Made by a program: the position numbers and the translations under genes. A DNA stretch of 64,000 bases, taken from positions 30,549-94,548 of IMG/VR virus record IMGVR_UViG_3300028840_004626. One strand, given 5' to 3'. Numbering within the stretch: the first letter of the stretch is position 1; the number at the start of each line of letters is the position of its first letter. Below the pieces are notes generated by a model. That model worked only from the letters and a program-made list of their open reading frames with translations, had not been told where the DNA came from and made no database searches. Below are positions 44,970-60,161 of this stretch, in pieces. The stretch comes from a virus.

Positions 44970-46010
44970 ATGGCCGGACAATTTGAAAGCGGAAGAGGCC
45001 TGGACATCGGAACCAGCTTCATTATTAGCTCCAGGGCTTTTAAGGAGGGTGGCAAGACCCAGTATACAGAGTTCCGTGATGCGTTTTATGTAATGAAGCC
45101 GACCTCTCCTATTGCCAAGAAGATGATGGAAAAGGGCCTTAAGGGTCAACAATATTTCAATGACGTTGACGGATCCTTTATTGTTGTAGGCCAGGACGCC
45201 ATAGAGCGCGCCATAGAGCGCAATCAAAGTGCTAGGCGCCCCCTCCAGAGGGGAGTAATTGCACCCCGTGAGAAGCAAGCTAGGCGCATTCTACGCCATA
45301 TTTTTAAGGAGATCCTAGACAAGCCTCTCGAAGAGGGAGAGAAGCTCGTATATTCAGTTCCTTCTCAGCCCGTGGATCAGCCCGCAGAGAATTTTGATGT
45401 GGGATTTCATATAGATGCACTTAATAATGATCTAGCTGCTCTGGGCTATAGTCCGCAGCCCCTTAGTGAGGCCGAAGCCATTTGTTATTCAGAGCTCGAG
45501 GCTGACGATTATACGGGTTTGGCATTTTCATTTGGCGCAGGCATGGTTAATGTCTGCCTGATGAGCTCTGGCGAGGGAATCCTCCATTGGAGCACCACCA
45601 GAAGCGGGGATTGGGTAGACAGAATGGCAGCCCAGGCTACCGCTACACCCGATACCGTAGTGCAGGTAGAAAAAGAGGGTACAAAATTTAAAATTGGTGA
45701 AGAAAACACTAGCAATCCAATTTTGAGTGCGGTATCCTTGTATTACATTCGATTAATAGACTATACAGTACAATACATGATTAAGAGACTTCTTCAGGCA
45801 GACAATCTACCAAAGTTTACATCTCCGATTCCAATTGTTTTGTCTGGAGGAACAAGCCGAGCGCAGGGTTTTGTTGAACAATTTGATCGGCTGTTAAAAG
45901 AACACAACAAAGATGACAACACCTTACCATTCGAAATCAAAGAAGTTCGTTCTGCTAAAGACCCTCTTCGCGCGGTATCGCGAGGATGCTTACTTGCATC
46001 CCAGATTTAG
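44970..46010 (+). CDS. Actin-fold ATPase (ParM/MreB-like)
   Basis: A 346-aa protein, ATG 44970 with ribosome site TAGGAGG. It has the three nucleotide-site signatures of the actin/Hsp70 ATPase fold in the right order: phosphate-1 loop GLDIGTSF (residues about 10-17), phosphate-2 loop LAFSFGAGMVNVCLMSSGEG (about 184-203) and adenosine motif LSGGTSRAQGF (about 291-301). TRSGDWVDRMAA after phosphate-2 resembles the SGD-x-x-D/E region of MreB-type proteins. The length matches MreB (about 345) and ParM (320) and is far shorter than Hsp70. Members assemble ATP-dependent filaments for cell shape or for moving DNA. Here it could position phage DNA or organise surface synthesis. A non-polymerising relative cannot be excluded. 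Confidence 0.8.
   Translation: MAGQFESGRGLDIGTSFIISSRAFKEGGKTQYTEFRDAFYVMKPTSPIAKKMMEKGLKGQQYFNDVDGSFIVVGQDAIERAIERNQSARRPLQRGVIAPREKQARRILRHIFKEILDKPLEEGEKLVYSVPSQPVDQPAENFDVGFHIDALNNDLAALGYSPQPLSEAEAICYSELEADDYTGLAFSFGAGMVNVCLMSSGEGILHWSTTRSGDWVDRMAAQATATPDTVVQVEKEGTKFKIGEENTSNPILSAVSLYYIRLIDYTVQYMIKRLLQADNLPKFTSPIPIVLSGGTSRAQGFVEQFDRLLKEHNKDDNTLPFEIKEVRSAKDPLRAVSRGCLLASQI
45198..45221 (+). repeat. 12-base tandem duplication inside the actin-like gene
   Basis: GCCATAGAGCGC occurs twice in direct succession (45198-45209 and 45210-45221). It encodes AIER-AIER in a helical region of the actin-like protein, and the reading frame is kept. It looks like a recent slip duplication or an extended charged helix. 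Confidence 0.8.
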
Positions 46011-46019
46011 GGAGAAGGC

Positions 46020-47117
46020 ATGAGGCCTTTAAAACCAAATAGTCGTGGGGCATTCGTTCCCACACCCATGGCACTTCGACCAAGACGAAAAGAATCGCCA
46101 TTTTCAAAACCTTGCCAGGCTCTTGGCCACCTAGATAGAGTAATCAAGGGTGAGCCTCCCAGGATTTGTATTGTGCGCAGCAGGGGTGGTATTGGCGACG
46201 TACTAATGACAACTCCAACCGTCAAAGCTATTTCAAAAAAGTATAACTGCAAGGTTGACTATGCTACAGATTTTGAATATCTTGACGGAGCACTTCTCAA
46301 GGTGATGACGGGAAACCCATATGTGGGTCACATCTTTGAGCATCGAGAGCTAGACTTTCGCAAAGATGACTATAATGCAATTATTAATTTGACTTGCCCG
46401 TGTACCTCTCACGAGAAACCCTTGGCTCCGCCAGTTAATCGTATAGATCTGTTTGCCCGCCATGCAACTATTCCTCTTGAAGATACGTCAATGGATTTTG
46501 TTCTGAGCTCAGATGAGTTAGAGTGGGCCAGAAACTATATTTCTTCCCAGGGATTAAGCTCATATAAATTAATCATGGTGCAACCATCTTCTAGCAATAC
46601 AAGACGAGATGCGCCTGTTGCTACGATGAAGAATGCACTCACTGAAATCTTGGCTCACCACAAAGATATAAGGGCCTTGATTATTACCCATAGCAGTGAC
46701 AATACGCGTACAGAATGGAAATTTGCGGAGACTCATGTTTTACAAAATTTTGATGTTCGCCAGCTTGCCGCTCTTATGCATTATTGCGATCTGGTTTTGT
46801 GTCCAGATAGTGCGATTTTGCATGTCGCGTCAGCGTTCCATAAACCAACCGTCACCCTCTTCGGACCAACCGACCCGAGGGCACGAGTTAATTATCATCC
46901 CGAAGCCGTGGCTATTTGGCCCGGCAAAGAATTACACAACTACCCTTGCTGGTATGAAGACCCAAAAGATGGATATCTTTGTTGGAAGAGATTGGAGCCA
47001 AATGTTATAGCCGCTGCTTGCCTGGCGGTAATGAACAAAACCGATTTGCCCCCTTCTCGCGACCTGGTCACCTTTGGCCAATACAAGACATCTAATGAAT
47101 TCTATGAAATTTTATAG
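46020..47117 (+). CDS. Family 9 glycosyltransferase (heptosyltransferase-like)
   Basis: A 365-aa protein, ATG 46020 behind AGGGAGAAGG. After a basic leader of about 45 residues, the GT9 N-terminal motif appears: VRSRGGIGDVLMTTPTVKAI (compare 'R..aiGDvll..P' in ADP-heptose transferases). The C-terminal half has the donor-site signature: QLAALMHYCDLVLCPDSAIL, HVASAFHKPTVTLFGPTDP, which is typical of WaaC/WaaF/RfaF-like enzymes. A C-terminal Trp/Cys-rich part (YPCWYEDPKDGYLCWKRLE) is additional. It probably adds a sugar to an LPS-like or protein-linked acceptor in the cytoplasm. It is the first gene of the glycosyltransferase block. Confidence 0.85.
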   Translation: MRPLKPNSRGAFVPTPMALRPRRKESPFSKPCQALGHLDRVIKGEPPRICIVRSRGGIGDVLMTTPTVKAISKKYNCKVDYATDFEYLDGALLKVMTGNPYVGHIFEHRELDFRKDDYNAIINLTCPCTSHEKPLAPPVNRIDLFARHATIPLEDTSMDFVLSSDELEWARNYISSQGLSSYKLIMVQPSSSNTRRDAPVATMKNALTEILAHHKDIRALIITHSSDNTRTEWKFAETHVLQNFDVRQLAALMHYCDLVLCPDSAILHVASAFHKPTVTLFGPTDPRARVNYHPEAVAIWPGKELHNYPCWYEDPKDGYLCWKRLEPNVIAAACLAVMNKTDLPPSRDLVTFGQYKTSNEFYEIL

Positions 47118-47125
47118 GAGAATAC

Positions 47126-48511
47126 ATGGACAACAAATTTGCCTTTGGCACCAACAAGCTGGTGATGCCCACCGGTTTATCTCAAAGCTTTAATTCTGTC
47201 AGCCAGCCCGTCACTAGTCAGCCCGCTAATATTCAGCCCCCTCGCAAGAAAAAGGTTCTGGTATGGTCAGACGCAGTTATTGCTACTACCGGATTTGGGG
47301 TAGTTTCAAAACACATTCTGAAAGCTCTACATGAGACAGGTCTATATGATATCGATCAGTTGGCAATTAATTACTTTGGCGATTTTGTAGACAAGTCGGA
47401 AGTCCCATATAGCATGGTGCCTGCCCGCCTCAACAATCCGAACGACCCGTATGGCAATCAGATGTTTTTGGATGCTATCGGCGCTAAGCCATATGATATT
47501 GTATTTGTTGTTAATGACACGTTTGTGGTCGAGGGGGTTTCTGCCCATATCAGCGAGATTAAGTCTAACAAGCTAAACTCGGGGCAACCAGTATTTGATT
47601 TGGTATATTATTTCCCTGTAGATTGTCGCTTCTTGCAGCGTGCTTCAACAATGGCCAAAGCGGCCGACCGCGCCGTGGCCTACACAGAGTTTGCGAAGCG
47701 CTCAGCAGAAGAGGCAGAGGTCAATGTAACGGACGTTATCTATCATGGCACTGATATAAAGAATTTTTTTCCAGTTCCTCCAGAGGTGAGGAACTTATGC
47801 CGGAAACGTTTCTTTAACATTGAGGACCCAGATCGCTTCATTCTCGTCAACGTCAATCGCAACAATAGTCGCAAAGACATCGCCAGAAGCATACTGGCCT
47901 TTAAGGAATTTAGAAAGCGTGTTCCTAATTCTGCCTACTATCTTCACACTAAAATGGTAGACTCCCCTGGGCATGGGCATGAAATTGACCTGGGTGTCTG
48001 CATTGAAGAGCTGGGACTTAGCACCCAGACGGATGTAATTTTTCCCAACGCTTTGCATCCGGCCAAGGGGTTTCCGATCGAGGTACTCAACCAGCTCTAT
48101 AACGCTGGTGATGCTTATTTCACAACCACCCTGGGAGAGGGATGGGGTTTAACTATCACTGAAGCGATGGCTGCAGGTATCCCAGTTATTGCTCCTAATA
48201 ACACGAGTATCCCAGAAATCCTGGGAGAAAATCTTGACCGGGGCTATGTATATCCATGCAAAGAACAGGTATATGTAGATAATAGCGGTTACCGTCCGTA
48301 TGGTTCGATGGAAGATATCGTCAATAGCATGATGCAATGTTATGAAGACTGGAAAACTCAGGCTCCGCGTCGACAAGAGATCGTCAGTCGCGCCAAAGAG
48401 TTTGTACACAAATATTCTTGGGAGCATATATGCAAACAATGGGTAACATTATTTGGAGAGCTTGGAAATGGCAACAATGCTAATTACCAGATGGAAGGGG
48501 AGATGATGTAA
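47126..48511 (+). CDS. Family 4 glycosyltransferase (GT-B fold)
   Basis: A 461-aa protein, ATG 47126 behind TAGGAGAAT. A Pro/Gln-rich leader of about 40 residues precedes the GT-B N-domain (KKVLVWSDAVIATTGFG). The C-domain has VIYHGTDIKNFFPVP, an N-N-S-R-K region typical of GT4, and the E-x7-E donor motif TLGEGWGLTITEAMAAGIPV, with the two Glu near residues 338 and 346. It uses a nucleotide-sugar donor; the acceptor is unknown. The stop overlaps the next start by one base, so the two GT4 genes are translated together. Confidence 0.88.
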   Translation: MDNKFAFGTNKLVMPTGLSQSFNSVSQPVTSQPANIQPPRKKKVLVWSDAVIATTGFGVVSKHILKALHETGLYDIDQLAINYFGDFVDKSEVPYSMVPARLNNPNDPYGNQMFLDAIGAKPYDIVFVVNDTFVVEGVSAHISEIKSNKLNSGQPVFDLVYYFPVDCRFLQRASTMAKAADRAVAYTEFAKRSAEEAEVNVTDVIYHGTDIKNFFPVPPEVRNLCRKRFFNIEDPDRFILVNVNRNNSRKDIARSILAFKEFRKRVPNSAYYLHTKMVDSPGHGHEIDLGVCIEELGLSTQTDVIFPNALHPAKGFPIEVLNQLYNAGDAYFTTTLGEGWGLTITEAMAAGIPVIAPNNTSIPEILGENLDRGYVYPCKEQVYVDNSGYRPYGSMEDIVNSMMQCYEDWKTQAPRRQEIVSRAKEFVHKYSWEHICKQWVTLFGELGNGNNANYQMEGEMM

Positions 48512-49644
48512 TGTCAGACCATCCCATAAAACTGAAATACGTCGGTGCAGTTGGCGATACTAGTGGATATGCAAATGCATGTCGCAACTATATCTGTGCG
48601 CTACTTGATACTAACGAGATAGACTTGTCGGTGGGTATCGCAAGTTTTGAGAAGACCAAAACGAGTCATGGTCCAGCCATGGAGCGTATTGCACCATATG
48701 TCAACCGCCCAATAAAGCCCAAGATTCAGATTACTCATCTTACCCCAGAGAATTATCCAGCATTTAAAACGCCTGGTGCATACAACATTGCATATACGGT
48801 ATGGGAAACTGAAATGCTGCCACATGGATGGGTTGACCTAATTAATAGTATGGATGAGGTATGGGTTCCTTCCGACTGGAATATTGAGATATTTAAGAAG
48901 AGCGGAATTAGGAAGCCCATGTTTAAGGTGCCTCATGTAATTCCTATCCCCTCTGGTGGTCACGCAAAACATGTGACGGTTCCTACTCAAGATAACGAAA
49001 CCTATGTGTTTTATTCAATCTTTCAGTGGATAGAAAGAAAAAATCCACTAGCTCTTTTAAGAGCCTATTTTACGGAGTTCGGCCCTAAGGACAATGTGTG
49101 TTTGGCCCTGAAGAGTTATCGACTAGATAGTTCTGCGCAAGAGAAGGCTATTGTTAAAGGCGATATCAAGACTTGCAAGCAGTCTTTGAACTTGCCGTAT
49201 TATCCTCCGGTAATTTTCTTTGGAGATCTGATGCCGGCTGAATATATTCATGGATTACATGAACGTGGTGATTGTTTTGTAATGGCCCAGCGTGGCGAGG
49301 GGTTTGGTATTCCTCATGCAGAAGCTATGGCTCATGGCAATCCTGTTATTGCTACTGGATATGGTGGCAATATGGAATTCATGAACAAAGAAACAGCTTT
49401 TCCAGTAGACTGTCAGCGAACACCAGTGGCCGGCATGATCTTTGCCAACTATCATGGCCATATGGTTTGGGCTGAACCCAATATTATGCATATGCGAGAG
49501 CATATGAGGTTTTGCTACGAGAATCGAGATAGGGCAAAAGATGTTGGTAAAACTGGCAGAGAATTTATTGAACACAATTACAGCTCTAAGGCGATTGGCA
49601 AACTCATGCTAGATCGTCTGAGAGAGATCGAGAAAGGACTATAG
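48511..49644 (+). CDS. Family 4 glycosyltransferase (GT-B fold)
   Basis: A 377-aa protein, ATG 48511, overlapping the previous stop by one base. The N-domain begins LKYVGAVGDTSGYANACRNY, a glycine loop often seen in GT4 relatives that use mannose-type donors. It continues with IAYTVWETEMLPHGWVDLIN and DEVWVPSDWNIEIFKKSGI. The C-domain has the E-x7-E motif RGEGFGIPHAEAMAHGNPV (Glu263 and Glu271). The protein is shorter than its upstream neighbour and not closely similar to it. The likely role is sugar transfer in the same glycan pathway. Confidence 0.85.
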   Translation: MSDHPIKLKYVGAVGDTSGYANACRNYICALLDTNEIDLSVGIASFEKTKTSHGPAMERIAPYVNRPIKPKIQITHLTPENYPAFKTPGAYNIAYTVWETEMLPHGWVDLINSMDEVWVPSDWNIEIFKKSGIRKPMFKVPHVIPIPSGGHAKHVTVPTQDNETYVFYSIFQWIERKNPLALLRAYFTEFGPKDNVCLALKSYRLDSSAQEKAIVKGDIKTCKQSLNLPYYPPVIFFGDLMPAEYIHGLHERGDCFVMAQRGEGFGIPHAEAMAHGNPVIATGYGGNMEFMNKETAFPVDCQRTPVAGMIFANYHGHMVWAEPNIMHMREHMRFCYENRDRAKDVGKTGREFIEHNYSSKAIGKLMLDRLREIEKGL

Positions 49645-49645
49645 C

Positions 49646-51226
49646 ATGGATACTGGACTAATATATACAGGCGAAGACCACGAAGGTAACTGGTTTTATA
49701 ATCGATATTACTATGGTGGTTCTAATTCTCGGTATTATACGTTTCAGTTGGCCATGAATTTACTTAATCAACGTCATGATTGTCCTACCATTATTGAGAC
49801 CGGGTGCCAGAGGCAAGAAGAAGATGTGGGCGCAGGGATGTCTACCAGTATTTTTGCTGAATATGTTGATAGATATGGTGGGCATTTAATTGCTGTTGAT
49901 AACGATACTACTCATCTGGCTCGTGCCGCAACCTTTGTTCAAAAGTGGCCTAATGCCAGCGTTAAATTAGTGCCATCTGACTCTGTTAAATTTCTCGAAT
50001 GGTATGATGGTCCATGCAACCTTCTTTACCTAGATAGCCTTGATTATCCTATTGCAGAGAATCTTGGCAATCAACAGATGCAGCAAGATGCCCAACAACA
50101 TTGTCTGAAGGAATTTAAGGCTATCGAGGACAAGCTAGACCCCAAAGCTATTCTGCTTATTGACGATAACCAGCTAGGTGGCGGCGGCAAGCCCCGAGCC
50201 CTAAAGGAATATATCGTCGAAAAGGGCTGGATATACGAAGTAAAGATGTTCCATGAGCTTGGACACGAGGTGTTCTCTCCTGGGGCCTATGTGGAACCAG
50301 CGAATCCTGGAGACGCCACATTGCGACCAGCTATACCTGGACTTATATATGATCCAGATATCGTCAAACAATTTCATGAAATCGGAGCGCGGCACCCAGG
50401 GGAAGATGCTAAAAATTATCTCACCAAAGAATTTGTGGATAATTTTGACTGCATTATCGTAATGCACATGCCCAGGTGGATTGCTGGCAATTGGCCTGAA
50501 ATCAAGCATAAAAGAGTAATCTGGAGAACTATCGGCCAGTCTGTTTCTACTACCGAACAAGAGTTGGCCCCTTACCGAAAGAGGGGTATGGAGATTGTTC
50601 GTTATTCGCCCAAAGAGCGAAATATTCCGGGGTATATAGGGCAGGATGCGCTGATTCGTTTCTATAAAGACCCGGCTGATTATGGGCCCTGGAATGGTAA
50701 TAATAAAAGAGTCATTACATTTGCTCAGAGCATGAAACAGCGCGGGCCCGCATGTAGTTTCGATTTCTTTGAGGAAGTAACGCGCAAATTTCCTCGACAT
50801 CTTTATGGTCCGGGCAACGAGGGCATAGGCCCATGGGCTAGTGGCAAAGTGTCCTATGACCAACTCAAAGAGGAGATGCGCTGCAACAGGGTATACTTCT
50901 ATACGGGAACACATCCCGCCAGCTATACGCTCAACTTTATTGAGGCGTGGATGACCGGCATCCCGATTGTTGCGCTTGGTCCAGAACACGGCAATGCCTC
51001 ATATTTCCCCGGCCATGATCTTTATGAAGTTACAGACCTGATTCAAACGCATTACAGTGGGTTTGTATCTGATAACCCGTATGAGCTCCAGGGATATATC
51101 CAAATGCTACTCGACAATGATGATATCGCTAGTTTAATCAGTACACAGGGTCGCCAGATGGCTATCCACCACTTTGGCAAGGACAGGATCTACAAATCTT
51201 GGCAAGAGTACCTGGGAGAATCATAA
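49646..51226 (+). CDS. Methyltransferase-glycosyltransferase fusion
   Basis: A 526-aa protein, ATG 49646. The first ~200 residues resemble the class I SAM-dependent Methyltransf_24 group: TIIETGCQRQEEDVGAGMST in the cofactor-loop position, HLIAVDNDTTHLARAATF, NLLYLDSLDY and AILLIDDNQLGGGG. Residues about 260-520 form a GT-B-like domain with TIGQSVSTTEQELAPYRKRG and a GT4-style C-domain (SYTLNFIEAWMTGIPIVALG, then an HGNASYFPGHDLY segment). The fusion suggests that methylation and sugar transfer act on the same glycan, perhaps as a chain-ending step. The stop overlaps the next start by one base (TAATG). Confidence 0.7.
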   Translation: MDTGLIYTGEDHEGNWFYNRYYYGGSNSRYYTFQLAMNLLNQRHDCPTIIETGCQRQEEDVGAGMSTSIFAEYVDRYGGHLIAVDNDTTHLARAATFVQKWPNASVKLVPSDSVKFLEWYDGPCNLLYLDSLDYPIAENLGNQQMQQDAQQHCLKEFKAIEDKLDPKAILLIDDNQLGGGGKPRALKEYIVEKGWIYEVKMFHELGHEVFSPGAYVEPANPGDATLRPAIPGLIYDPDIVKQFHEIGARHPGEDAKNYLTKEFVDNFDCIIVMHMPRWIAGNWPEIKHKRVIWRTIGQSVSTTEQELAPYRKRGMEIVRYSPKERNIPGYIGQDALIRFYKDPADYGPWNGNNKRVITFAQSMKQRGPACSFDFFEEVTRKFPRHLYGPGNEGIGPWASGKVSYDQLKEEMRCNRVYFYTGTHPASYTLNFIEAWMTGIPIVALGPEHGNASYFPGHDLYEVTDLIQTHYSGFVSDNPYELQGYIQMLLDNDDIASLISTQGRQMAIHHFGKDRIYKSWQEYLGES

Positions 51227-51957
51227 TGAAAGGCATTGTTTTGGCAGGTGGAATGGGTACACGCCTAGCCCCATTAACAAGAAATGACAACAAACATCTC
51301 TTGCCGGTCTATAACAAGCGTATGGTAGAGTATCCCGTTAATACACTGGTTGAGGCAGGTATTGATGAGATCGTATTAATCACTGGGGGTAAACGCCCTG
51401 GCGCATTTCTTGAGCTATTTCGTAACGGGCAAGACCATGGTGTCAAGAAGTTCTATTATGCTTACCAAACAGGCAATGGTGGCATTGCTGATGCGTTAAA
51501 GCTAGCTGAGCCTTTCTGTGACAAAGAGCCGTGCGTAGTTATCTTAGGGGATAATTATTTTGAGGATGGCATTGAAGACCAGGTGGCGCTTTGGTGGCGC
51601 GCTGAGGCATGTATGGGGGCCGGATGCATACTGAAGCCCACAGAGACACCATGGCATTTCGGTATTGCGGAAACAGATGGGGGCAAGATAGTCTCCATTG
51701 AAGAGAAGCCCAGTGAGCCCAAATCCGACCAGGCCATTTTGGGATGCTACTTTTTTGATCGCACAGTATGGGATATCCTCCCATCGATTAAGCCTTCCGC
51801 GCGTGGCGAGCTAGAAATTACTCATGTCCTCGAAGAGTACATGAAGCAAGACAAGCTAGAAGCCTATGGTTATGACGGTTACTGGTCTGATATGGGCACG
51901 TTTGAGACATGGACAGAAGTTTCTCAGAGGATTGCAGATCGATGTCAAAAGTCCTAA
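51226..51957 (+). CDS. rmlA: Glucose-1-phosphate thymidylyltransferase-like nucleotidyltransferase
   Basis: A 243-aa protein. The start is ATG 51226, overlapping the previous stop by one base. An upstream in-frame ATG would run 27 bases into the preceding gene and break the standard N-terminus. The NTP-transferase signature MKGIVLAGGMGTRLAPLTRN is followed by KHLLPVYNKRMVEYPV (compare RmlA 'K.LLPVYDKPM'), VVILGDNYFEDGI, and EEKPSEPKSDQAILGCYFFD. It would make dTDP-glucose from glucose-1-phosphate and dTTP. It is shorter than housekeeping RmlA (about 290 aa) and lacks its C-terminal part, so the exact nucleotide and sugar are not certain. The rmlB homologue lies two genes downstream. Confidence 0.8.
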   Translation: MKGIVLAGGMGTRLAPLTRNDNKHLLPVYNKRMVEYPVNTLVEAGIDEIVLITGGKRPGAFLELFRNGQDHGVKKFYYAYQTGNGGIADALKLAEPFCDKEPCVVILGDNYFEDGIEDQVALWWRAEACMGAGCILKPTETPWHFGIAETDGGKIVSIEEKPSEPKSDQAILGCYFFDRTVWDILPSIKPSARGELEITHVLEEYMKQDKLEAYGYDGYWSDMGTFETWTEVSQRIADRCQKS

Positions 51958-52919
51958 TTACAGGCGTAGCTGGATTTATTGGATATAATCTGGCCAAACT
52001 AATGATGGCTCGTGGATACGAGGTTGTCGGTATTGACAATTTTGACCCATATTATGATCCCACGATTAAACATCGACGAATCAAGAATCTAACAAACAAG
52101 AAATATTATTTTACGGATGGTTGTTATTTCCACTTTTACAGAATTGATATTAGAAATCAGGAATCGATTAGCTGGTTAATGAATGAGTATAAATTTGATG
52201 GAGTTATTCATTTGGCAGCCCTGGCGGGGGTTCGACCTTCATTACAAAGACCAGCCGATTACATGGATGTTAATGTTAGGGGCTCCACTATTCTTCTGGA
52301 GCAATGCCGGCTTCACGGCATCAAGAATGTGGTAGTTGCCTCATCTTCATCCGTTTATGGAGACAGAGTGACAGGGGCTTGTCTTGAGTCTCTTATCTGT
52401 ACGCATCCAGAATCTCCTTATGCGGCCAGCAAAAGAGCCATGGAGCTAATCTGCGATAATTTTAGTCGCTTATACGATATGGACATCAAGGCCTTGAGAT
52501 ATTTCACGGTATATGGTCCTGGCCAGAGGCCAGAGATGGCTATCCATCAATTTATTCGCAAGGCCATGTTAGGTGAGGAAATTACACTGTTTGGAAGCAT
52601 GGAGTCTAAAAGGGATTACACATATATTGATGATATCTGTGAGGGTACTTTAGCTGCCTATAGGCATACTCCCGGCGGGTTTTCAATTTTTAATTTAGGG
52701 AATAATAGGCCTATTGAACTGATCGATTTAGTTTTTGCAGTGCACCATCATACAGGCAAGGAGCTTAATCTAAAGTGTCTTCCTAAGCAGCCGGGTGATG
52801 TTCATGCAACGTGGGCTCATCCAGGCTTGGCCCTCAAGGAGCTTAATTGGGAGGCCACTACCCCATTTGAAGAGGGCATGCGTCTTACGTCCGAGTGGGC
52901 GAAGGAGAAATACCAATGA
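51942..52919 (+). CDS. NAD-dependent sugar epimerase (UDP-glucuronate/glucose 4-epimerase-like)
   Basis: A 325-aa protein. I start at ATG 51942 (MSKVLITGVAGFIGYNLAKL), 16 bases inside the end of the upstream gene; a further upstream ATG would add 11 residues before the Rossmann fold. It has the GxxGxxG cofactor loop (GVAGFIG), VVGIDNFDPYYDPTIKHRRI, which is typical of UDP-glucuronate 4-epimerases, VVASSSSVYGD, and the catalytic Y-x-x-x-K in SPYAASKRAME (Tyr160, Lys164). LRYFTVYGPGQRPEMAI and RDYTYIDDICEGT complete the short-chain epimerase pattern. The substrate is inferred only from family resemblance. The stop overlaps the next start as ATGA. Confidence 0.85.
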   Translation: MSKVLITGVAGFIGYNLAKLMMARGYEVVGIDNFDPYYDPTIKHRRIKNLTNKKYYFTDGCYFHFYRIDIRNQESISWLMNEYKFDGVIHLAALAGVRPSLQRPADYMDVNVRGSTILLEQCRLHGIKNVVVASSSSVYGDRVTGACLESLICTHPESPYAASKRAMELICDNFSRLYDMDIKALRYFTVYGPGQRPEMAIHQFIRKAMLGEEITLFGSMESKRDYTYIDDICEGTLAAYRHTPGGFSIFNLGNNRPIELIDLVFAVHHHTGKELNLKCLPKQPGDVHATWAHPGLALKELNWEATTPFEEGMRLTSEWAKEKYQ

Positions 52920-53857
52920 TTCTTGTAACTGGATCTGCAGGATTTATCGGATCAAACCTCTGTTACCACCTTGTTAATGATCTTGGGGCCGATGTGATCG
53001 GCATCGATAAGCTAGGCCCCGAGTCCAATAGGGGTTGGACTGAGCCCCTTGAGGCTGGACCTGGTGGCAAAAGAATGATATTTCGCCCAGTGAACTTGTG
53101 CGAGTATCATCCAGTAAAGAGATTATTCGAAGAATATCCTATTGAGCATGTAATTCACTTGGCTGCTGAGTCTCATGTGGATCGGAGCATCACCAACCCA
53201 TCCTCTTTTTGGATGTCTAACGTGATTGGCACAGAGCACCTACTGCATGCGTGCCATAAGTTTGGGGTCAAAACAGTCATCAACCAAATTACGGACGAGG
53301 TATATGGAGAACGCCCAGATGATCCAGCATGTGAAGGGGATGCGTTTGCTCCCACTTCACCCTATCCATGTTCCAAGATGGCCCAGTACTATGTAGGGAA
53401 AAGTTATCATACGACCTATGGACTACCCGTAATGTCAACTTTTCCTGTCAACTGTTATGGGCCACGCCAGTTTCACGAGAAGCTGATTCCCAAGTTCATC
53501 ACCAAGTTGATGGAAGGTGAGAAGGTACCCCTAATGGCCTCAACGCATTTTGAACGTGACTGGCTGCCAGTGGAGGACATGTGTAAGGCGCATTCCACAC
53601 TAATCAGTAAGGGTGTCCCAGGAGAAGATTATAATGTAGGGGCTTTTAATCATCACACCAATATGCAGATTACCCACAAGTTATTAGATCTGTGTGGGCG
53701 AGATGAAAATGCCATTGAAATTGTACCGGATCGCAAAGCACACGACTCGAGGTATGCGGTGACCAATCAGAAAATGAAGGATCTTGGGTGGGCCGTGACA
53801 TATGATTTCGATGACTATTTGGAATATACAGTGGAGTGGTATCGTGAACAACTTTAA
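52916..53857 (+). CDS. rmlB: dTDP-glucose 4,6-dehydratase-like enzyme
   Basis: A 313-aa protein, ATG 52916, overlapping the upstream stop (ATGA). Family marks in order are MILVTGSAGFIGSNLCYHL (GxxGxxG), HLAAESHVDRSI, ITDEVYGE with Asp127 and Glu128 as the likely dehydration pair, SPYPCSKMAQYY (Tyr150, Lys154), NCYGPRQFHEKLIPKFI, and RDWLPVEDMCKA. The 'ESHVDRSI' and 'TDEVYG' strings are hallmarks of RmlB rather than of simple epimerases. The product, dTDP-4-keto-6-deoxyglucose, is the branch point for rhamnose and amino sugars. No rmlC or rmlD is seen here, while an aminotransferase and an acetyltransferase are. RmlB proteins of cells are usually slightly longer (about 340-360 aa). Confidence 0.88.
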   Translation: MILVTGSAGFIGSNLCYHLVNDLGADVIGIDKLGPESNRGWTEPLEAGPGGKRMIFRPVNLCEYHPVKRLFEEYPIEHVIHLAAESHVDRSITNPSSFWMSNVIGTEHLLHACHKFGVKTVINQITDEVYGERPDDPACEGDAFAPTSPYPCSKMAQYYVGKSYHTTYGLPVMSTFPVNCYGPRQFHEKLIPKFITKLMEGEKVPLMASTHFERDWLPVEDMCKAHSTLISKGVPGEDYNVGAFNHHTNMQITHKLLDLCGRDENAIEIVPDRKAHDSRYAVTNQKMKDLGWAVTYDFDDYLEYTVEWYREQL

Positions 53858-54272
53858 TATTGATCATGTAGGATGGATTACCGGCGACGTTGAACTGTTT
53901 GAGAAGTTTTGGGTTGGTGTTCTGGGCTATGCGTTTGTTCGAGAAACCTATATTGAGGAAGAAGCCTGCTTCAACCTGTTTGAGCGTACGTCGGGCGCTC
54001 GTATTAGGCGTTATCGACGTGATGGCGCTGGACCCGATATTGAGATTCATTGCTTTGATCAGGGTCCGCGTCCCAGGCTGCAGGCCTTTGACGCATTCGG
54101 TATCAACCATATCTGTTTGCATACGGGTGGTCCAGGCAGTCGCAGAGAGCTTGTGTCTGAGCTTCCTGGCGACGTGAAGGTCCACATCTACGATAATCCT
54201 AAGGGTTGGGAAAATATTTTTATTCAAGACTATGAGGGTAATTGGGTCGAGCTGAGAGAGAACTTTGCCTAA
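53844..54272 (+). CDS. VOC-fold (glyoxalase/dioxygenase superfamily) protein
   Basis: A 142-aa protein. GTG 53844 is chosen because it gives the normal VOC start NNFNIDHVGWITGDVELFEK, with GGAGTG 9-14 bases upstream; it overlaps the rmlB end by 14 bases. The two beta-alpha-beta-beta-beta halves are visible: IDHVG-F-FW--LGY, then INHICLHTGG and NWVELREN. Putative metal ligands are His (IDHVG), Glu (DIEIHCF), His (INHIC) and Glu (WVELRE). VOC members include epimerases, isomerases and lyases. In this setting an epimerisation or isomerisation of a sugar intermediate is conceivable, but the substrate is not indicated by sequence. Confidence 0.75.
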   Translation: MNNFNIDHVGWITGDVELFEKFWVGVLGYAFVRETYIEEEACFNLFERTSGARIRRYRRDGAGPDIEIHCFDQGPRPRLQAFDAFGINHICLHTGGPGSRRELVSELPGDVKVHIYDNPKGWENIFIQDYEGNWVELRENFA

Positions 54273-55011
54273 GCCAACAGTATCACGTAGATTTATTTCA
54301 CTACCCAAGTGTGGTCGCACCTGGCAAGAGGTACGCATGCAGCTTTTTTTGGACCATATTATGCAGTGTCCGTCTCCAGAAAAGGAGATGAGGGCTCGCA
54401 TAGCCCTAGATCACTTTGGGTTTGGGAAGCCCGGCATCGAACAATATAATCCAAACCTCGCTAAGTTTGCGCCTGGTGCCCACTTGTTCGTGGCTCTACG
54501 TGATGCAAAAGAAGTAATTAATTCTACCTATTGGCGTCTTCGTGGGCGCCCAAACATTGTGTTGCCCAAGTCTATTGACGAGTTTGCAGTAGGGTCTAGG
54601 GGCATGGCCAGGTTTTGCGCTTATCTTGAGAAGCTATGTCGCCTTCTCAAGAAAAGTACATACCAGTTTACCTGGATTTATTATGAGGATTTGTTCATGC
54701 CACAGTCACTCCACTTAGTGCCCGAGATGTTGGGGATGGACTATTCTTTATCTGAAACTGAAGTAGGCTTTCTTCACCAATATAGTTCTATAGACACCAT
54801 TTATCGTATCGTGAAACAGAGACAGGGTACCCGGGAGGAAAAAGGCATTTATCGCAACCTACAGCTGCCCATAGATCCAAAGCACGGGCATATTCGCCGG
54901 GGTGTACGCGAGGATTATAAGCAGCACATGTCTCCCAAGACCCAGCAGGCCATTGACGACTATCTAGACTCAGAATGTAAACTACAACAGTATAGGGAAA
55001 GATATTTATAA
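54265..55011 (+). CDS. Sulfotransferase-fold protein (copy 1)
   Basis: A 248-aa protein, TTG 54265, overlapping the upstream gene by 8 bases. Residues about 10-23 (FISLPKCGRTWQEVRM) fit the 5'-phosphosulfate loop of sulfotransferases (compare 'YPKSGTTW'). LFVALRDAKEVINSTYWRLR fits the 3'-phosphate-binding 'RdPkDvxxSxy' region, and FTWIYYEDLFM the 'YEDL' strand. It would move sulfate from PAPS to a hydroxyl or amino group, here probably of a sugar. It is clearly related to the protein at 61510-62214 (shared SGRxWQExRM...LFL and the C-terminal Q/EYRERY). A kinase or other enzyme on the same fold is less likely. The stop overlaps the next start by one base. Confidence 0.75.
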   Translation: MPKPTVSRRFISLPKCGRTWQEVRMQLFLDHIMQCPSPEKEMRARIALDHFGFGKPGIEQYNPNLAKFAPGAHLFVALRDAKEVINSTYWRLRGRPNIVLPKSIDEFAVGSRGMARFCAYLEKLCRLLKKSTYQFTWIYYEDLFMPQSLHLVPEMLGMDYSLSETEVGFLHQYSSIDTIYRIVKQRQGTREEKGIYRNLQLPIDPKHGHIRRGVREDYKQHMSPKTQQAIDDYLDSECKLQQYRERYL

Positions 55012-55598
55012 TGTCTAATCCGGTATTTACTACGTCCTATATGAATGACGCAGCAGATAACTTTTTAACATCATTTGCGCGACTTATTGATCCTAATTTA
55101 GCTATTGAATTAGGAGCTCAACAGGGACATAGCGCTGTCAATATCAGTATGGGCATGAGGGTAGATGCTACTTTTGTAACCTACGATTTGTTTGACCCAC
55201 AGTATGCACAGCCTCCGCACGGACCAACACATGCCAGCATGGAAGGAGTTCAGAACAACCTAAGGCGCGCACAACCCGTGTGTGACTGGGAAGTTAGGCG
55301 CGGCAGCATAGAGGAAATCATTGTCGATTATCCAGATGGTTTTGATCTTTTTCATTTAGATATCTGCAATCACTATGAGAATGCCAAGCCAGTTCTGGAA
55401 CAGATTGCGCCATTAGTTTCAACAGCCATGATTATAGAGGGTGGCATTTATAATCAGTGGCAAAAGCAGTGTGGGTTTAAGCCATGGCACCCGATTCTCG
55501 ATGAAGCCTGGTTTCGTAAACACTGGAAAAGTATTACGATTGCTCTCAATGATCACAATGCTATTACGCTCGCCACAAGGAAGCGTCAAGGAGATTAA
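55011..55598 (+). CDS. SAM-dependent methyltransferase-like protein (copy 1)
   Basis: A 195-aa protein, ATG 55011. The cofactor-loop region LAIELGAQQGHSAVNI (residues about 30-45), VTYDLFDPQYAQPPHG with the acidic residue after strand 2, and GFDLFHLDICNHYENAKPVL resemble Methyltransf_24-type class I enzymes. These often act on sugars or cephalosporin-like substrates. It is related to the 180-aa protein at 60971 (shared 'Y-DxFDxxQY', 'DLFHxDxxN', 'xLLEGG / IIEGG'). In both places the gene adjoins a sulfotransferase-like gene, so methylation and sulfation probably act on the same glycan. Confidence 0.65.
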   Translation: MSNPVFTTSYMNDAADNFLTSFARLIDPNLAIELGAQQGHSAVNISMGMRVDATFVTYDLFDPQYAQPPHGPTHASMEGVQNNLRRAQPVCDWEVRRGSIEEIIVDYPDGFDLFHLDICNHYENAKPVLEQIAPLVSTAMIIEGGIYNQWQKQCGFKPWHPILDEAWFRKHWKSITIALNDHNAITLATRKRQGD

Positions 55599-55600
55599 GG

Positions 55601-56779
55601 ATGATTAGCGTATGTTGTTGTATTTTTAATGCTAAATGGGATGTGCAGACTCTCATTGAGGCGTGTGAATATCATAACGACCCGGCAGAATTTGAGATTG
55701 TGGTAACCCTGGATGACCGGGTAGAAGATGGCTCTCTAGAATTATTGCGCGACCTGCAGACGAGATATGATAACCTAAAGGTAGTCGTTCACACTGACGA
55801 GGATACTATCGAATATATGTCGGCTGCTCTGGATTATTATCATCGACGACAATTTTTCAATGAGGAGATTCGCGTTGGTATGCGTGATGCGTTAGAGAGA
55901 TACAAGAAAGGCGAGCTGCTTAATAAGAGCAAGGCTTTTCTGTGGCAAAGCTCAGGGATCTTGTATAACAAAGCCGTAGAGGCATCTAGTGGCGATGTCA
56001 TTCTCGTTACCCCGGGAGACTTCCTGTATCTTTTTGGATTGGGCAACCTAGAAAGGTTCGTGAGAAAACATGCCATAGGGGATATATTTTATGCATCGCC
56101 CCCTGCCATATGGGCAAGAGTTAATAATATGGACCCGGAGTGGCTCAGGAGGCATATTAACGAGGTGCACAATGATGCTCAAAAGGCACGCCCAGGTTTT
56201 CGCTGGGATAGTCGAGAAACCTTTAGAGATTACTTGCGATATCCTCCACAATTATCCGATTTCAATTTGCCAGATTTTCGTAATAACCGTATGATCAACT
56301 TTACAGATCCTGATTTTCTCGACAAATCTCGCCAGTTCTGTATCGAATCTATGACTCAGGGCGGGGTTCAGTGCAATCCTAAGTTTCATGGGTGTCATGT
56401 GATGACGCGAAAGACCTTCGAGATGATTGGTGGATTTACTGAGGAGTGGATTCATCGCGCCTTTCCAGATGACAAGATGACTTACCTGGGTTCTAGGATC
56501 GGTGGACATACAGAACTTCCCCCACAATTTGCTTTTGCCTGGCTTGGCAATGGAGAGTTGTTGCCTGGCCACGGGCCGGGATATGAAGATGCCTGGAAGG
56601 TGGAGCTGCCAAAGGTAGATCCATTATGGGATAAACATCCAATACCCCCTCGGGTTCACAAAGTATATTTACACGACAAGATTGTAAAAGAGAAACATAT
56701 GAATGACCTGGTGCGCAAAAGCTTTGGTACTAATACTCCACCGATAAGGATAGGAACATGCAAAAGGATCGACTCTTAA
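55601..56779 (+). CDS. GT2-like (GT-A fold) glycosyltransferase
   Basis: A 392-aa protein, ATG 55601 behind AAGGAGATTAAGG. It begins ISVCCCIFNAKWDVQTLIEA, followed by FEIVVTLDDRVEDGSLELLR, the usual GT2 start. Residues 85-140 hold an inserted charged helix. GDVILVTPGDFLYLFGLGNL is where a DxD motif would sit, but it reads 'TPGD', so the metal site may differ or the enzyme may use another acidic pair. The C-terminal half includes FEMIGGFTEEWIHRAFPDD, like the 'GGFdE....eD' acceptor-site motif of GT2. Its last 22 bases overlap the next gene. Confidence 0.7.
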   Translation: MISVCCCIFNAKWDVQTLIEACEYHNDPAEFEIVVTLDDRVEDGSLELLRDLQTRYDNLKVVVHTDEDTIEYMSAALDYYHRRQFFNEEIRVGMRDALERYKKGELLNKSKAFLWQSSGILYNKAVEASSGDVILVTPGDFLYLFGLGNLERFVRKHAIGDIFYASPPAIWARVNNMDPEWLRRHINEVHNDAQKARPGFRWDSRETFRDYLRYPPQLSDFNLPDFRNNRMINFTDPDFLDKSRQFCIESMTQGGVQCNPKFHGCHVMTRKTFEMIGGFTEEWIHRAFPDDKMTYLGSRIGGHTELPPQFAFAWLGNGELLPGHGPGYEDAWKVELPKVDPLWDKHPIPPRVHKVYLHDKIVKEKHMNDLVRKSFGTNTPPIRIGTCKRIDS

Positions 56780-57660
56780 TTCTATCTAATCACTATAGGC
56801 GCAGTGCGTTTTTTGAGGATACAATACGGCTGCTATATGATGCCGGATACCAGAATGTCTGGATTCAGGATACTGGCCATGAGACATGGGGGCCCTATCA
56901 GGGGCCCAGTCGGATATATGATAAGCCAGGACATTATACGTATGACTCTGGCATGGTTAATTTGAAAAACCAGATCCCGCGAGGGTCTGGCCCATGCGAC
57001 GTAATTCTATTTATTGACAACGACTGTTTCCTAAATAATCTAGATAATTTTCAAACCTATTTGCAAGAATTTTTGGATGGAGGATATGATTATGCATGCC
57101 ATTTTGCCCATCCCTGTTATTACAAAAATTATAGGTTTGAAGGCAAAGAAATCTTGCCCGTTAACAACCAGACTTTTCATCCGTCTGATGACAAGCCGGG
57201 TTTTGCTCCAGATCCACACTGGGAAAATGCGTATATGCTTATCGCCAAGTCAACATGGGATGCCCTAACCCCACAGGAAATGTCACATGGTAGACTATGG
57301 ACTAGGGGATTGGTTCGGACAGGGGCGCGATTGGGTACACATAGCTGCAAATATAAGTTATCGTTTAGTCACTTTGGGCCTGGATGGTTCCATGTGGGCA
57401 ACCTGATGGGCACCCATATTGCTTTGGAAAAGATGATTAAGGTGGAACGAAAATTTAATCCTGAGTCGCGCATGAATATGGCTCGCTTAGGCTATTTTAT
57501 TGTTCAAAGGGACATATATGGCAAAGACATATATCCCAAGTACATTAATGGCAACCTTAATCAGATTATCAAAATGGTTGGGGGCAGGCAGATAGCAATA
57601 GACGCATGGGAACAGCTAGTATCTGGAACTTGTATGGAACACTGGGAGAAATTGTCATGA
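56758..57660 (+). CDS. Predicted GT-A-like glycosyltransferase (pair A, copy 1)
   Basis: A 300-aa protein, ATG 56758, 22 bases inside the end of the previous gene. It opens with LLILSNHYRRSAFFEDTIRL and then YQNVWIQDTGHETWGPYQG. A DND motif in DVILFIDNDCFLNN fits the metal-binding DxD of GT-A enzymes. Further conserved parts are PHWENAYMLIAKSTWDAL, GPGWFHVGNLMG and the ending SGTCMEHWEKLS. It aligns along its length with 62198-63097, so these are paralogues. I do not know a named family. The glycosyltransferase call rests on the DxD-like motif and context. Confidence 0.55.
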   Translation: MQKDRLLILSNHYRRSAFFEDTIRLLYDAGYQNVWIQDTGHETWGPYQGPSRIYDKPGHYTYDSGMVNLKNQIPRGSGPCDVILFIDNDCFLNNLDNFQTYLQEFLDGGYDYACHFAHPCYYKNYRFEGKEILPVNNQTFHPSDDKPGFAPDPHWENAYMLIAKSTWDALTPQEMSHGRLWTRGLVRTGARLGTHSCKYKLSFSHFGPGWFHVGNLMGTHIALEKMIKVERKFNPESRMNMARLGYFIVQRDIYGKDIYPKYINGNLNQIIKMVGGRQIAIDAWEQLVSGTCMEHWEKLS

Positions 57661-58775
57661 AACAGAATATTCCCCTTTTTAAAGTTAGAATGACTGGTGG
57701 TGCAGCGGAAGCCGTGAAGGCGACAGTAGAGTCTGGCTGGATTGGGCAGGGGCCTCGAGTAGAGGAGTTCGAAAGGGGCTTGGTGGACTATATTCAATAC
57801 CCCCATCTGGTTACGTTAAACAGCGCCACATCTGCATTGCAGCTAGGGCTCAGATTGGCTGGCGTGAGGCCGTATGACCAAGTTCTAAGCTCACCCCTGA
57901 CTTGTTTCGCAACCAACACTCCGATATTAGCTAGCCATGCAACAATTAAATGGGCCGATGTGGACCCGCAGACCTGTAATATTGACATCGACGATGTGGT
58001 CAAGAAAGTGTCAGATGATACAGCGGCCATATTGTTTGTTCATTGGGGTGGTGTGCCCGTGGACGTAGAACAATTGGTTAGTAGAGTAACTGATAAATTG
58101 GGCAAGTGTCCTCCTATCATTGAGGATTGTGCTCATAGCATGGGCAGTTATTATAAGGGCGGCACTCATCACGTAGGCACCAATGGTAATTTTGGGGCTT
58201 TTTCTTTCCAGGCCATCAAACACCTGACAACAGCAGATGGAGGGATGTTGACTATGGCCCCCGAATTTCATAGACGGGCTAAGCTAATGCGCTGGTACGG
58301 AATTGATCGCGATAACCCTAATAAAAAGGATTTCCGCAGCGAACTGCCTGTTGAGGAATGGGGATATAAATTTCATATGAATGATGTCGCTGCGGTAATG
58401 GGCATCGAAAATCTTAAAACTCTCGATGAGGCCGTAGATCGACATCGTGACAATGCAGCATATTATGATCAGGAGCTCAGGGGTTTAGATGGGTTGGGCT
58501 TTTTTGATATTCCAGAAGGCTCGCGTCCCGCATATTGGTTATATACGATGAAGGTAGAACGTCGCGAAGACTTCATGAGGCATCTTAGGGACCATGGCAT
58601 TGTTGCAAGCAGAACACATGAACGCAATGATATTCATCCATGTGTAGAAAGATTCCAGGTTGAGCTGCCCAAATTAGATTCCTTTAATACGAAGGTGTGT
58701 TGTATCCCGGTGGGGTGGTGGGTATCTGATGAAGACCGCGAATATATTGTTGAGGTAATCAAACAAGGATGGTAA
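57657..58775 (+). CDS. DegT/DnrJ/EryC1 sugar aminotransferase
   Basis: A 372-aa protein. ATG 57657 overlaps the upstream stop (ATGA); an earlier in-frame start would add residues foreign to the family. Family marks are SGWIGQGPRVEEFERGLVDY, LNSATSALQLGLRLAGVRPYD, WADVDPQTCNIDIDDV, IIEDCAHSMGSYYKG, and FGAFSFQAIKHLTTADGGML, where Lys188 is the likely PLP lysine. EEWGYKFHMNDVAAVMGIEN completes the pattern. Such enzymes aminate keto-sugar nucleotides. With RmlB upstream and a GNAT enzyme downstream, amination of dTDP-4-keto-6-deoxyglucose at C4 (as by WecE/RffA or VioA) is the simplest reading. A C3 enzyme would need a ketoisomerase that I do not see. Confidence 0.88.
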   Translation: MKQNIPLFKVRMTGGAAEAVKATVESGWIGQGPRVEEFERGLVDYIQYPHLVTLNSATSALQLGLRLAGVRPYDQVLSSPLTCFATNTPILASHATIKWADVDPQTCNIDIDDVVKKVSDDTAAILFVHWGGVPVDVEQLVSRVTDKLGKCPPIIEDCAHSMGSYYKGGTHHVGTNGNFGAFSFQAIKHLTTADGGMLTMAPEFHRRAKLMRWYGIDRDNPNKKDFRSELPVEEWGYKFHMNDVAAVMGIENLKTLDEAVDRHRDNAAYYDQELRGLDGLGFFDIPEGSRPAYWLYTMKVERREDFMRHLRDHGIVASRTHERNDIHPCVERFQVELPKLDSFNTKVCCIPVGWWVSDEDREYIVEVIKQGW

Positions 58776-59611
58776 TGAAGCGGTTTGATTATGTATATAT
58801 TCTGTGTATTTGGCCAGGACGCAACCGCGTATTACATACAGCGCGTGCCCACATGAACTTCTTGCGCCAATATGAATATCTCAAGGACCGGGTCTACCCA
58901 AGATTCGTAGACGCAAGAGTCAAGACCACGGGAGACAAGAGTGTTTTGCTAGTTGTAGCCATACGTGGAGACTTGTGTCCAGATTACGAGAGGCAGGTCC
59001 AGGAAGCTTTCGATGGCCTATGTATGCCAAGCAATATTCATCTCAAAGTTGTACGTCATACCAATTGGGGAGGCACCATAGGTAGTCTCTGGGATGTATG
59101 GAAGGATGTGCTCAAGGGTAAAATTGTTTCTCAATATGTGAGTGTGTCTGAAGACGACTACATAAGCAGCAACTGGTCTTTGCGGGAACGATTATTAGAA
59201 CTGGGGTATATCTATGTGGGCATGATTTTATCACAGAAACATTGTGGCCACCTATATTGGGTTAGCAAGCATGGCTATCGGACTTTGCATCGGAATGATC
59301 GACCTGTTATTGGCAATGCCCTGAATTTTATACACGCAAAATACGGGTATGAGAACCTGGACTGGACAGACGGGGGTTTTTATTTTATGAAATATGAGTC
59401 TCTTCAGGCGATTGAGAACAAGATTGGCATATTTACCAAGGCCCCAAAGGACAAACCCTATAACCATACTCGTGATGGGATGTATTTTGGCGAAGCAGGT
59501 TTTCCAACAGAATTACAGGCTGCCGGATTTAAGATTATAGGTCTGGGCCCGGAATCACATCGCCCTTATCGCAATTTGGGCAGGGCTCCAGAGCTATTTT
59601 TTAGGATTTAA
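58775..59611 (+). CDS. Predicted GT-A-like glycosyltransferase (pair B, copy 1)
   Basis: A 278-aa protein. ATG 58775 is preferred to ATG 58769 because AAGGA at 58765-58769 is then correctly spaced and it overlaps the aminotransferase stop by one base. It begins MKRFDYVYILCIWPGRNRVL. SVLLVVAIRGDLCPDYERQV, then NWGGTIGSLWDVWKDVLKG, and VSEDDYISSNWSLRERLLEL, in which EDD may be the metal-binding motif. The C-terminus has WTDGGFYFMKYESLQ and FGEAGFPTELQAAGFKI. The protein at 60148 is the same length and shares all these blocks. The family is not known to me; a glycosyltransferase or related sugar-handling role is inferred. Confidence 0.5.
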   Translation: MKRFDYVYILCIWPGRNRVLHTARAHMNFLRQYEYLKDRVYPRFVDARVKTTGDKSVLLVVAIRGDLCPDYERQVQEAFDGLCMPSNIHLKVVRHTNWGGTIGSLWDVWKDVLKGKIVSQYVSVSEDDYISSNWSLRERLLELGYIYVGMILSQKHCGHLYWVSKHGYRTLHRNDRPVIGNALNFIHAKYGYENLDWTDGGFYFMKYESLQAIENKIGIFTKAPKDKPYNHTRDGMYFGEAGFPTELQAAGFKIIGLGPESHRPYRNLGRAPELFFRI

Positions 59612-59612
59612 A

Positions 59613-60161
59613 ATGTTCCATGATGGAGACCTATACATACGACCAGTGGTTCGAGATGACCTAGATTTCTTAAGGTATCTACGCAGTGATCCCGCTGTAT
59701 GGAGTCAACTAGGAACCCTTGTGGCCCCTACCGAGGCTAGCCAAGAGGCATGGCTGTCATCACTTAAGGATTCGAGGAAGCAATATCACATCATTGCATC
59801 GGACAAATTTGTCTATCCGGTAGGCTTAGCGCGCATGGATGAAATTGATCACCAGAATCGATCTATACGAATTGGTGCTGATATTGCTAAGGAATTTCGT
59901 GGCCAGGGCCTTGGGACCCAGACCTACAATCTGCTTTTGAGATATTGCTTTGATTTTCTCAACATGCATCGTGTCTGGCTAGCCGTAATGAACACGAATG
60001 CTATTGCGTTGGGACTATACAAGAAGATGGGTTTTCGAGAAGAGGGACGACAAAGGGATGCCATTTTCCGTAATGGTATTTATAATGACTATATCCTTAT
60101 GTCGATACTCGAGGATGAATATCGAGCAGAAATTCAACAGGAAAAAGATGCTAAGGCGTAA
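59613..60161 (+). CDS. GNAT-family N-acetyltransferase
   Basis: A 182-aa protein, ATG 59613. It has the RimJ/PseH/WecD-type GNAT layout: LYIRPVVRDDLDFLRYLRSD at the start, then YPVGLARMDEIDHQNRSIRI, and the acetyl-CoA loop KEFRGQGLGTQTYNLLLRYC (R96-G97-Q98-G99-L100-G101). VWLAVMNTNAIALGLYKKMG, followed by FREEGRQRDAIFRNGIYND, is the usual C-terminal motif. Between an amino-sugar aminotransferase and a glycosyltransferase-like gene, it probably acetylates the new amino group of the dTDP-sugar, as WecD or PseH does. It could instead modify a protein or ribosome, but context argues against that. It overlaps the next gene by 14 bases. Confidence 0.85.
   Translation: MFHDGDLYIRPVVRDDLDFLRYLRSDPAVWSQLGTLVAPTEASQEAWLSSLKDSRKQYHIIASDKFVYPVGLARMDEIDHQNRSIRIGADIAKEFRGQGLGTQTYNLLLRYCFDFLNMHRVWLAVMNTNAIALGLYKKMGFREEGRQRDAIFRNGIYNDYILMSILEDEYRAEIQQEKDAKA

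Follow-up and report, generated by a model that had tools for sequence, protein, structure and literature searches.

The stretch of viral DNA analysed here, referred to as the window, is 64,000 nucleotides long and covers bases 30549-94548 of the 94,548-bp linear virus fragment IMGVR_UViG_3300028840_004626, its last base being the end of the record. Towards that end lies a sugar-gene cluster which is still running at position 63903, i.e. up to the contig end (Table 1). As the initial annotation had reported, it holds an RmlA-like gene at 51226, an RmlB-like gene at 52916, a DegT-type aminotransferase gene at 57657 and a GNAT acyltransferase gene at 59613, and all four open reading frames were confirmed as full-length, with intact catalytic motifs, on the plus strand of a tightly packed gene run. 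The four are non-contiguous, with SDR epimerase, VOC, sulfotransferase-like, methyltransferase and transferase-like genes interspersed. Profile searches against Pfam and NCBIfam, which the initial annotation had suggested as a check, assigned them to NTP_transferase (2e-51), TIGR01181 (2e-82), DegT_DnrJ_EryC1 (2e-75) and Acetyltransf_3 (2e-16), E-values that exclude chance matches. The phage is contractile-tailed, with tail sheath, portal, large terminase and major head protein genes (PHROGs). Its head protein is 32-42% identical to the counterparts in Moorella phage MTATph1, Acinetobacter phage ME3 and Bacillus phage KLEB27-3, and 59 relatives were retrieved from uncultivated virus contigs. 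Upstream of the locus are proteins with weak beta-helix and galactose-binding-like matches, which resemble tail fibres or spikes. An assembly chimera was judged unlikely, as the G+C content is even over the window and sister phages have sugar genes at the same place.

The RmlA-like protein (243 residues) shares about 40% identity with E. coli RffH and keeps the motifs GGMGTRL at 8, KHLLP at 23 (K23), GDN at 108, EEKP and DMGT at 222, so that the GGxGTRL...K..LLP loop and two metal-binding Asp positions are present. It is without the long C-terminal extension typical of E. coli RmlA, and the initial annotation had worried that this might cost activity; the natural B. anthracis RmlA (3hl3), its best match in the PDB, is equally short, so the short C-terminus would not exclude an active enzyme. 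The RmlB-like protein has 313 residues and is 37% identical to E. coli RfbB, with the dTDP-glucose (dTDP, deoxythymidine diphosphate) 4,6-dehydratase model TIGR01181 by far its best family (276.8 bits). Its motifs include TDE126-128, Y150-K154 (YxxxK), the NAD-binding GSAGFIG at 6, ESHVDRS, RDWL and HDxRYA. TDE together with YxxxK is the motif of dTDP/UDP-Glc 4,6-dehydratases (table in PMC8987622), a class common to dTDP- and UDP-Glc enzymes which does not separate the carrier nucleotide. Together, RmlA and RmlB should yield dTDP-4-keto-6-deoxyglucose. When viral contigs were scanned, the RmlA and the 56758 protein found no relatives, and the RmlB found three distant ones.

The DegT-type aminotransferase (372 residues, PF01041) has its Schiff-base lysine at Lys188 (FSFQAIK, 182-188) and EDCAH at 156, and is of the lysine type; the 3-dehydratases have a histidine in place of this lysine. 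The best solved relatives were AtmS13 (333 bits) and CalS13 (305 bits), while ArnB scored 122 bits and QdtB 66 bits; we take PDB 4zwv and 4xau, labelled 'putative aminotransferase' in the database, to be AtmS13. A 93-sequence tree placed the window DegT in a 49-row clade (support 99/99) made up mostly of viral proteins, together with AtmS13 and actinomycete relatives, and ArnB and WecE fell outside it. WecE was only 26% identical, and WecD showed no detectable similarity to the window GNAT in either search direction, which does not bear out the 'WecE/WecD style' of the initial annotation. Its other suggestion, a VioA/VioB style, fails as well: the DegT groups with AtmS13/CalS13 and not with VioA, and the 59613 protein is a GNAT, whereas VioB is a hexapeptide (left-handed beta-helix) acetyltransferase. 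We know of no residue rule that settles 4-keto versus 3-keto specificity in DegT-type aminotransferases, and C-3 versus C-4 amination was judged from clade and gene neighbours. AtmS13 has been postulated to install an amine at C-4 of a dTDP-linked 4-ketopentose (PMC10951976), and this proposal therefore backs a dTDP carrier and C-4, but not a hexose.

The gene neighbours of viral DegT relatives bear on the hexose. Strong RmlB homologues (at least 150 bits) were found in 11 such loci, several of them closely related to one another, and all 11 carried TDE and YxxxK; UXS was found in none of the viral DegT-relative loci surveyed, and the DegTs closest by identity (50-53%; L004, L005 and L010) are located in loci holding RmlA and RmlB. 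For these reasons, a hexose is favoured over a pentose as the probable substrate. The initial annotation had cautioned that the DegT might belong with enzymes of other substrates; this is true in part, as its nearest solved relatives come from dTDP-aminopentose pathways, but the dehydratases beside the viral members favour a hexose.

The GNAT has 182 residues, an acetyl-CoA loop RGQGLG at 96 which conforms to the Q/RxxGxG/A pattern, and a C-terminal catalytic Tyr136 assigned by analogy. Its link to the aminotransferase was surveyed in 51 non-redundant viral DegT loci, over positions within 12 genes. A GNAT stood directly downstream (+1) of DegT in 20/49 viral loci, compared with 12/877 other positions (Fisher p = 6e-20, a guide value because the loci are related). 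By Pfam, the next gene after the viral DegT was a GNAT in at least 21 of 48 cases, with three hexapeptide and three formyl transferases in addition; in the window, GNAT is the second gene downstream. Given this enrichment, the pairing of this aminotransferase clade with an N-acyltransferase is well supported.

Taken together, the four enzymes point to dTDP-4-acylamino-4,6-dideoxyhexose as the best, though not proven, candidate product. RmlA would convert glucose-1-phosphate to dTDP-glucose, RmlB would turn this into dTDP-4-keto-6-deoxyglucose, DegT would aminate C-4 to give a 4-amino-4,6-dideoxyhexose (Qui4N or Fuc4N), GNAT would acylate the amine, most likely to the N-acetyl form, and a glycosyltransferase of the cassette would transfer the sugar to its target. 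Of the apparently complete route to a dTDP-acetamido-dideoxyhexose described in the initial annotation, the four compatible activities, the TDE-type RmlB, the lysine-type DegT and the DegT-GNAT linkage stand, but the product is still putative. That annotation also held rhamnose to be unsupported for want of rmlC and rmlD; indeed no homologue of either was detectable in the contig searched, but their absence is uninformative, because the record ends within the cluster. On balance, we consider it fairly probable that the locus makes an N-acylated dTDP-4-amino-4,6-dideoxyhexose and, with the glycosyl-, sulfo- and methyltransferases of the phage, decorates something that the phage itself makes, a virion protein being the likeliest candidate.

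In sister phages, the homologous locus lies about 55-70 kb downstream of the head gene and behaves as an exchangeable slot. On its left side, where present, are the actin homologue (71% identity), GT9 (40-51%), GT4a (41-58%) and GT4b (38-55%); on its right side, where seen, is a DnaG/DnaB-type primase-helicase (42-43% identity between sisters), while the right border in the window is beyond the record end. Between these borders, nearly all contents differ between sisters. No sister slot has orthologues of the RmlA, VOC, sulfotransferase-like, small methyltransferase or uncharacterised transferase genes, and an RmlA-family gene was found nowhere in the 28 sister records. The G003 slot contains a DegT (37%), a GNAT (35%), a cupin with weak RmlC/FdtA matches, a dehydratase and an RmlD-like protein, and the G032 slot a dehydratase and a GNAT (40%) at the contig end. 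TDK or SDK is found in the dehydratases of G003, G011 and G032, and PMC8987622 gives this motif for CDP-glucose dehydratases or inverting dehydratases of UDP-GlcNAc. Because the sister dehydratases are of this DK type and the slot contents differ while the core glycosyltransferases stay, the donor-sugar chemistry appears to be exchanged and the core glycosyltransferases retained. Inteins (Hint/LAGLIDADG) were seen inside the GT9 gene of G003 (L184:7353-9479), beside the GT4 gene of G011 (L185:17960-19000) and in the primase of G041 (L186:1423-5196); such insertions in or next to glycosyltransferase genes of phages are apparently uncommon, and may point to an important role of the core gene. 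Sulfation is a further theme, with two sulfotransferase-like genes in the window (54265-55011 and 61510-62214), an APS kinase in the G003 slot (L183:3690-4202) and a sulfotransferase in the G005 slot (L188:12710-13546).

As to the target of the glycan, the locus is positioned after tail-spike genes in the window phage and likewise follows tail genes in the sisters. A hydropathy scan found no membrane span in any cassette protein, nor were a flippase, a polymerase or a lipid-carrier enzyme recognised in the cassette, which makes a surface polysaccharide a less likely target than a soluble one. A virion protein is our best guess, from context alone, and the core glycosyltransferases holding their place in sister phages agree with it; the locus is most likely an exchangeable virion-glycan locus. 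It is a possible but tentative extension that this is a glycotype locus akin to a bacterial O-antigen locus, in which fixed core glycosyltransferases between tail-spike genes and primase are combined with a swappable module setting the donor sugar and the sulfate and methyl groups, so that relatives would differ in virion coat; the module sugar would then be dTDP-4-acetamido-dideoxyhexose here and the products of DK-type dehydratases in the sisters. Alternatively, the sugar might be meant for the host surface (superinfection block) or for phage DNA, both being uses of phage glycosyltransferases known from work cited in PMC12619734. We regard this as somewhat unlikely, given the same lack of membrane-spanning, flippase, polymerase and lipid-carrier proteins in the cassette, the position after tail genes, and a window without any recognised gene for DNA-base modification.

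Several observations weigh against a single four-enzyme route ending on the virion. The four enzymes are scattered across 9 kb, with seven other genes interposed. The RmlB falls below the NCBIfam equivalog cut-off (276.8 versus 365 bits) and the RmlA is also under its curated cut-off, and for this reason both are called divergent family members, the former, named RmlB-like, being one at most. The GNAT scores slightly better with SpeG (69 bits) than with PseH (64 bits), both under the curated cut-offs; PseH is the better-scoring model for the two sister GNATs and for the majority of the scanned viral GNATs linked to a DegT. Enzymes with proposed pentose substrates (AtmS13/CalS13) belong to the DegT clade, as do cellular members adjoining UXS (L166 and L171) and a UGDH-type gene (L166), and the glycan target is read solely from context.

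One rival is an arrangement without any single chain, in which RmlA and RmlB feed another product (e.g. rhamnose, with rmlC/rmlD past the contig end or in the host) and DegT and GNAT use a 4-keto sugar supplied by the host, for instance UDP-4-keto-6-deoxy-GlcNAc. In its favour, the locus is cut by the contig end, an SDR gene is interposed between RmlA and RmlB, most viral DegT-GNAT pairs occupy loci without RmlA, and the best NCBIfam model for the DegT is PseC (under its curated cut-off), with the GNAT partly matching PseH, both UDP-sugar enzymes. We nevertheless find this arrangement unlikely, since the closest DegTs by identity sit in RmlA and RmlB loci, every strong dehydratase near the DegT clade is TDE-type, and the substrates proposed for AtmS13 are dTDP sugars.

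The dTDP-4-acylamino product has two further competitors. A 3-acetamido-3,6-dideoxyhexose (Fuc3NAc/Qui3NAc type) would need a sugar 3,4-ketoisomerase past the contig end or in the host, and the small cupin of the G003 slot, with weak FdtA and RmlC matches, does lie between the dehydratase and the GNAT/DegT pair; but no ketoisomerase was recognised in the contig searched, and the DegT is distant from QdtB and close to AtmS13, a proposed C-4 enzyme, which makes such a product improbable. A 4-amino-4-deoxypentose, as proposed for AtmS13/CalS13, is less probable still: these two are by far the top PDB matches, AtmS13 belongs to an aminodideoxypentose pathway (PMC10951976) and UXS adjoins the cellular relatives mentioned above, but there is no UGDH or UXS in the contig searched and no UXS in viral relative loci, the dehydratase present is RmlB-type, the cellular relative L159 lies within an RmlA-RmlB-RmlC operon, and the dehydratase survey in particular lowers its weight.

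Table 1. Genes of the glycan locus in window coordinates, with the matches behind each assignment.
Feature	Position	Strand	Evidence
Actin homologue (Volactin-like), left border of glycan locus	44970..46010	+	PF25216 1.6e-57; 71% identical gene at same place in sister G003
GT9-family glycosyltransferase, conserved core	46020..47117	+	PF01075 3e-16; 40-51% in three sister slots
GT4-family glycosyltransferase (GT4a), conserved core	47126..48511	+	PF00534 7e-13; present in 6/28 sister records, the remaining records being mostly shorter contigs that may not all reach the slot
GT4-family glycosyltransferase (GT4b), conserved core	48511..49644	+	PF00534 5e-11; 38-55% in four sister slots
Methyltransferase and glycosyltransferase-like protein	49646..51226	+	N-terminal half PF13578 4e-7; C-terminal half by eye; split homologue in sister G005
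RmlA-like glucose-1-phosphate thymidylyltransferase, short form	51226..51957	+	Best PDB match B. anthracis RmlA 3hl3, likewise short
SDR sugar 4-epimerase-like, overlapping RmlA and RmlB genes	51942..52919	+	Best PDB 5u4q, 6zl6; SSSVYG...YxxxK, non-dehydratase motif
RmlB-like NDP-glucose 4,6-dehydratase, TDE class	52916..53857	+	TIGR01181 277 bits; PDB 6bi4 208 bits; TDE126-128, Y150xxxK
VOC/glyoxalase-fold protein, start codon uncertain	53802..54272	+	PF13669 2e-4
Sulfotransferase-like, PAPS-loop motif PKCGRTW	54265..55011	+	PF00685 0.003; paralogue at 61510
Class I methyltransferase	55011..55598	+	PF13578 2e-6
GT2-like glycosyltransferase	55601..56779	+	PF00535 2e-4
Uncharacterised DND-motif protein, possibly GT-A type	56758..57660	+	40% identical to paralogue at 62198
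DegT/DnrJ/EryC1/StrS sugar aminotransferase, AtmS13/CalS13 clade	57657..58775	+	PDB 4zwv 333 bits, 4zas 305 bits, ArnB 122 bits; tree; Schiff-base Lys188 in FSFQAIK
Transferase-like protein with EDD motif	58769..59611	+	37% identical to paralogue at 60148
GNAT acyltransferase, PseH/SpeG-like	59613..60161	+	RGQGLG acetyl-CoA loop, Tyr136; 35-40% homologues in sister slots
Second set, overall span, cut by contig end	60148..63903	+	
Paralogue of 58769 (second set)	60148-60984	+	
Methyltransferase (second set)	60971-61513	+	
Sulfotransferase-like (second set)	61510-62214	+	
Paralogue of 56758 (second set)	62198-63097	+	
Methyltransferase-like (second set)	63094-63903	+	

As shown in Table 1, a second set of genes follows the GNAT. 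Four paralogue pairs lie in 54265-63097, namely the two uncharacterised transferases (40% and 37%), the sulfotransferase-like proteins (26%) and the methyltransferases (23%), which suggests a partial duplication of the tailoring set. The 56758 protein had no match in Pfam, PHROG or PDB and the 58769 protein no family match; PDB profile searches gave chance hits alone for both, and structure models predicted from an alignment of each with its paralogue alone were unusable (mean pLDDT 42 and 48). The Volactin match of the actin at 44970-46010 is full-length, in a gene of a tailed phage adjoining glycosyltransferases; the family is named after a haloarchaeal cytoskeletal actin. The VOC/glyoxalase-fold gene (53802-54272), without a copy in the sister slots, sits between RmlB and the sulfotransferase-like gene.

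If the proposed pathway is true, the phage supplies its own rare amino-sugar donor including the entry enzyme RmlA, absent from every sister record checked, and would be independent of the host in this respect. It would also be a concrete case of donor-sugar module swapping between relatives, and virion glycan variation in phages, in the manner of O-antigens, becomes testable. Viewed purely as a sugar pathway, it adds modestly to the rhamnose and glycan gene sets already known from phages. No directly relevant paper on amino-sugar gene sets of phages turned up in searches of the open-access literature. The initial annotation overstated its case in calling a whole chain unusual in phages, given rmlBACD in phAPEC8 and its kin and three other uncultivated viral loci that combine RmlA and RmlB with a same-clade DegT and an acyltransferase, which is a GNAT in L005 and L010 and of the hexapeptide type in L004. 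The L005 contig also holds a NeuB (nonulosonic acid synthase, L005:13821-14639). The archaeal-labelled contig L172 (CABMCB010000001), perhaps a mobile element or virus, carries RmlB, a short RmlA (43% identical to that of the window), an integrase, a homologue of the 63094 methyltransferase-like protein and a same-clade DegT.

Among known systems, phAPEC8 and its relatives (rmlB-rmlA-rmlC-rmlD) are likewise phages in which RmlA and RmlB start a nucleotide-sugar pathway, and many phage RmlA matches belong to Escherichia phages of similar size. phAPEC8 is an isolated phage with a complete pathway; it differs in its RmlC/RmlD end, hence rhamnose, and has no aminotransferase or glycosyltransferase cassette annotated adjacent. 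The isolated Flavobacterium phage vB_FspM_immuto shares glycosyltransferases and a same-clade DegT (43% identity), and also encodes another DegT of lesser length and a product carrying the annotation 'pilin glycosylation protein', but no RmlA is annotated in that stretch and no GNAT was seen beside the DegT. AtmS13/CalS13 (PDB 4zwv, 4xau, 4zas) are the closest solved relatives of the DegT over its full length and share a dTDP-linked sugar and proposed C-4 amination; they differ in their proposed 4-ketopentose substrate and in belonging to actinomycete natural-product pathways. The proposed route follows the same order of reactions, from RmlA up to N-acetylation, as that of WecE/WecD (dTDP-Fuc4NAc, enterobacterial common antigen), though the window DegT and GNAT differ from these two in sequence. 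PseC and SpeG, the latter followed by PseH, are the top NCBIfam models for the DegT and the GNAT, all below cut-offs, but PseC and PseH act on UDP-linked sugars and SpeG on polyamines. Whole phage nucleotide-sugar pathways are thus already known; what is new here is an amino-sugar set with its own RmlA inside an exchangeable glycan slot.

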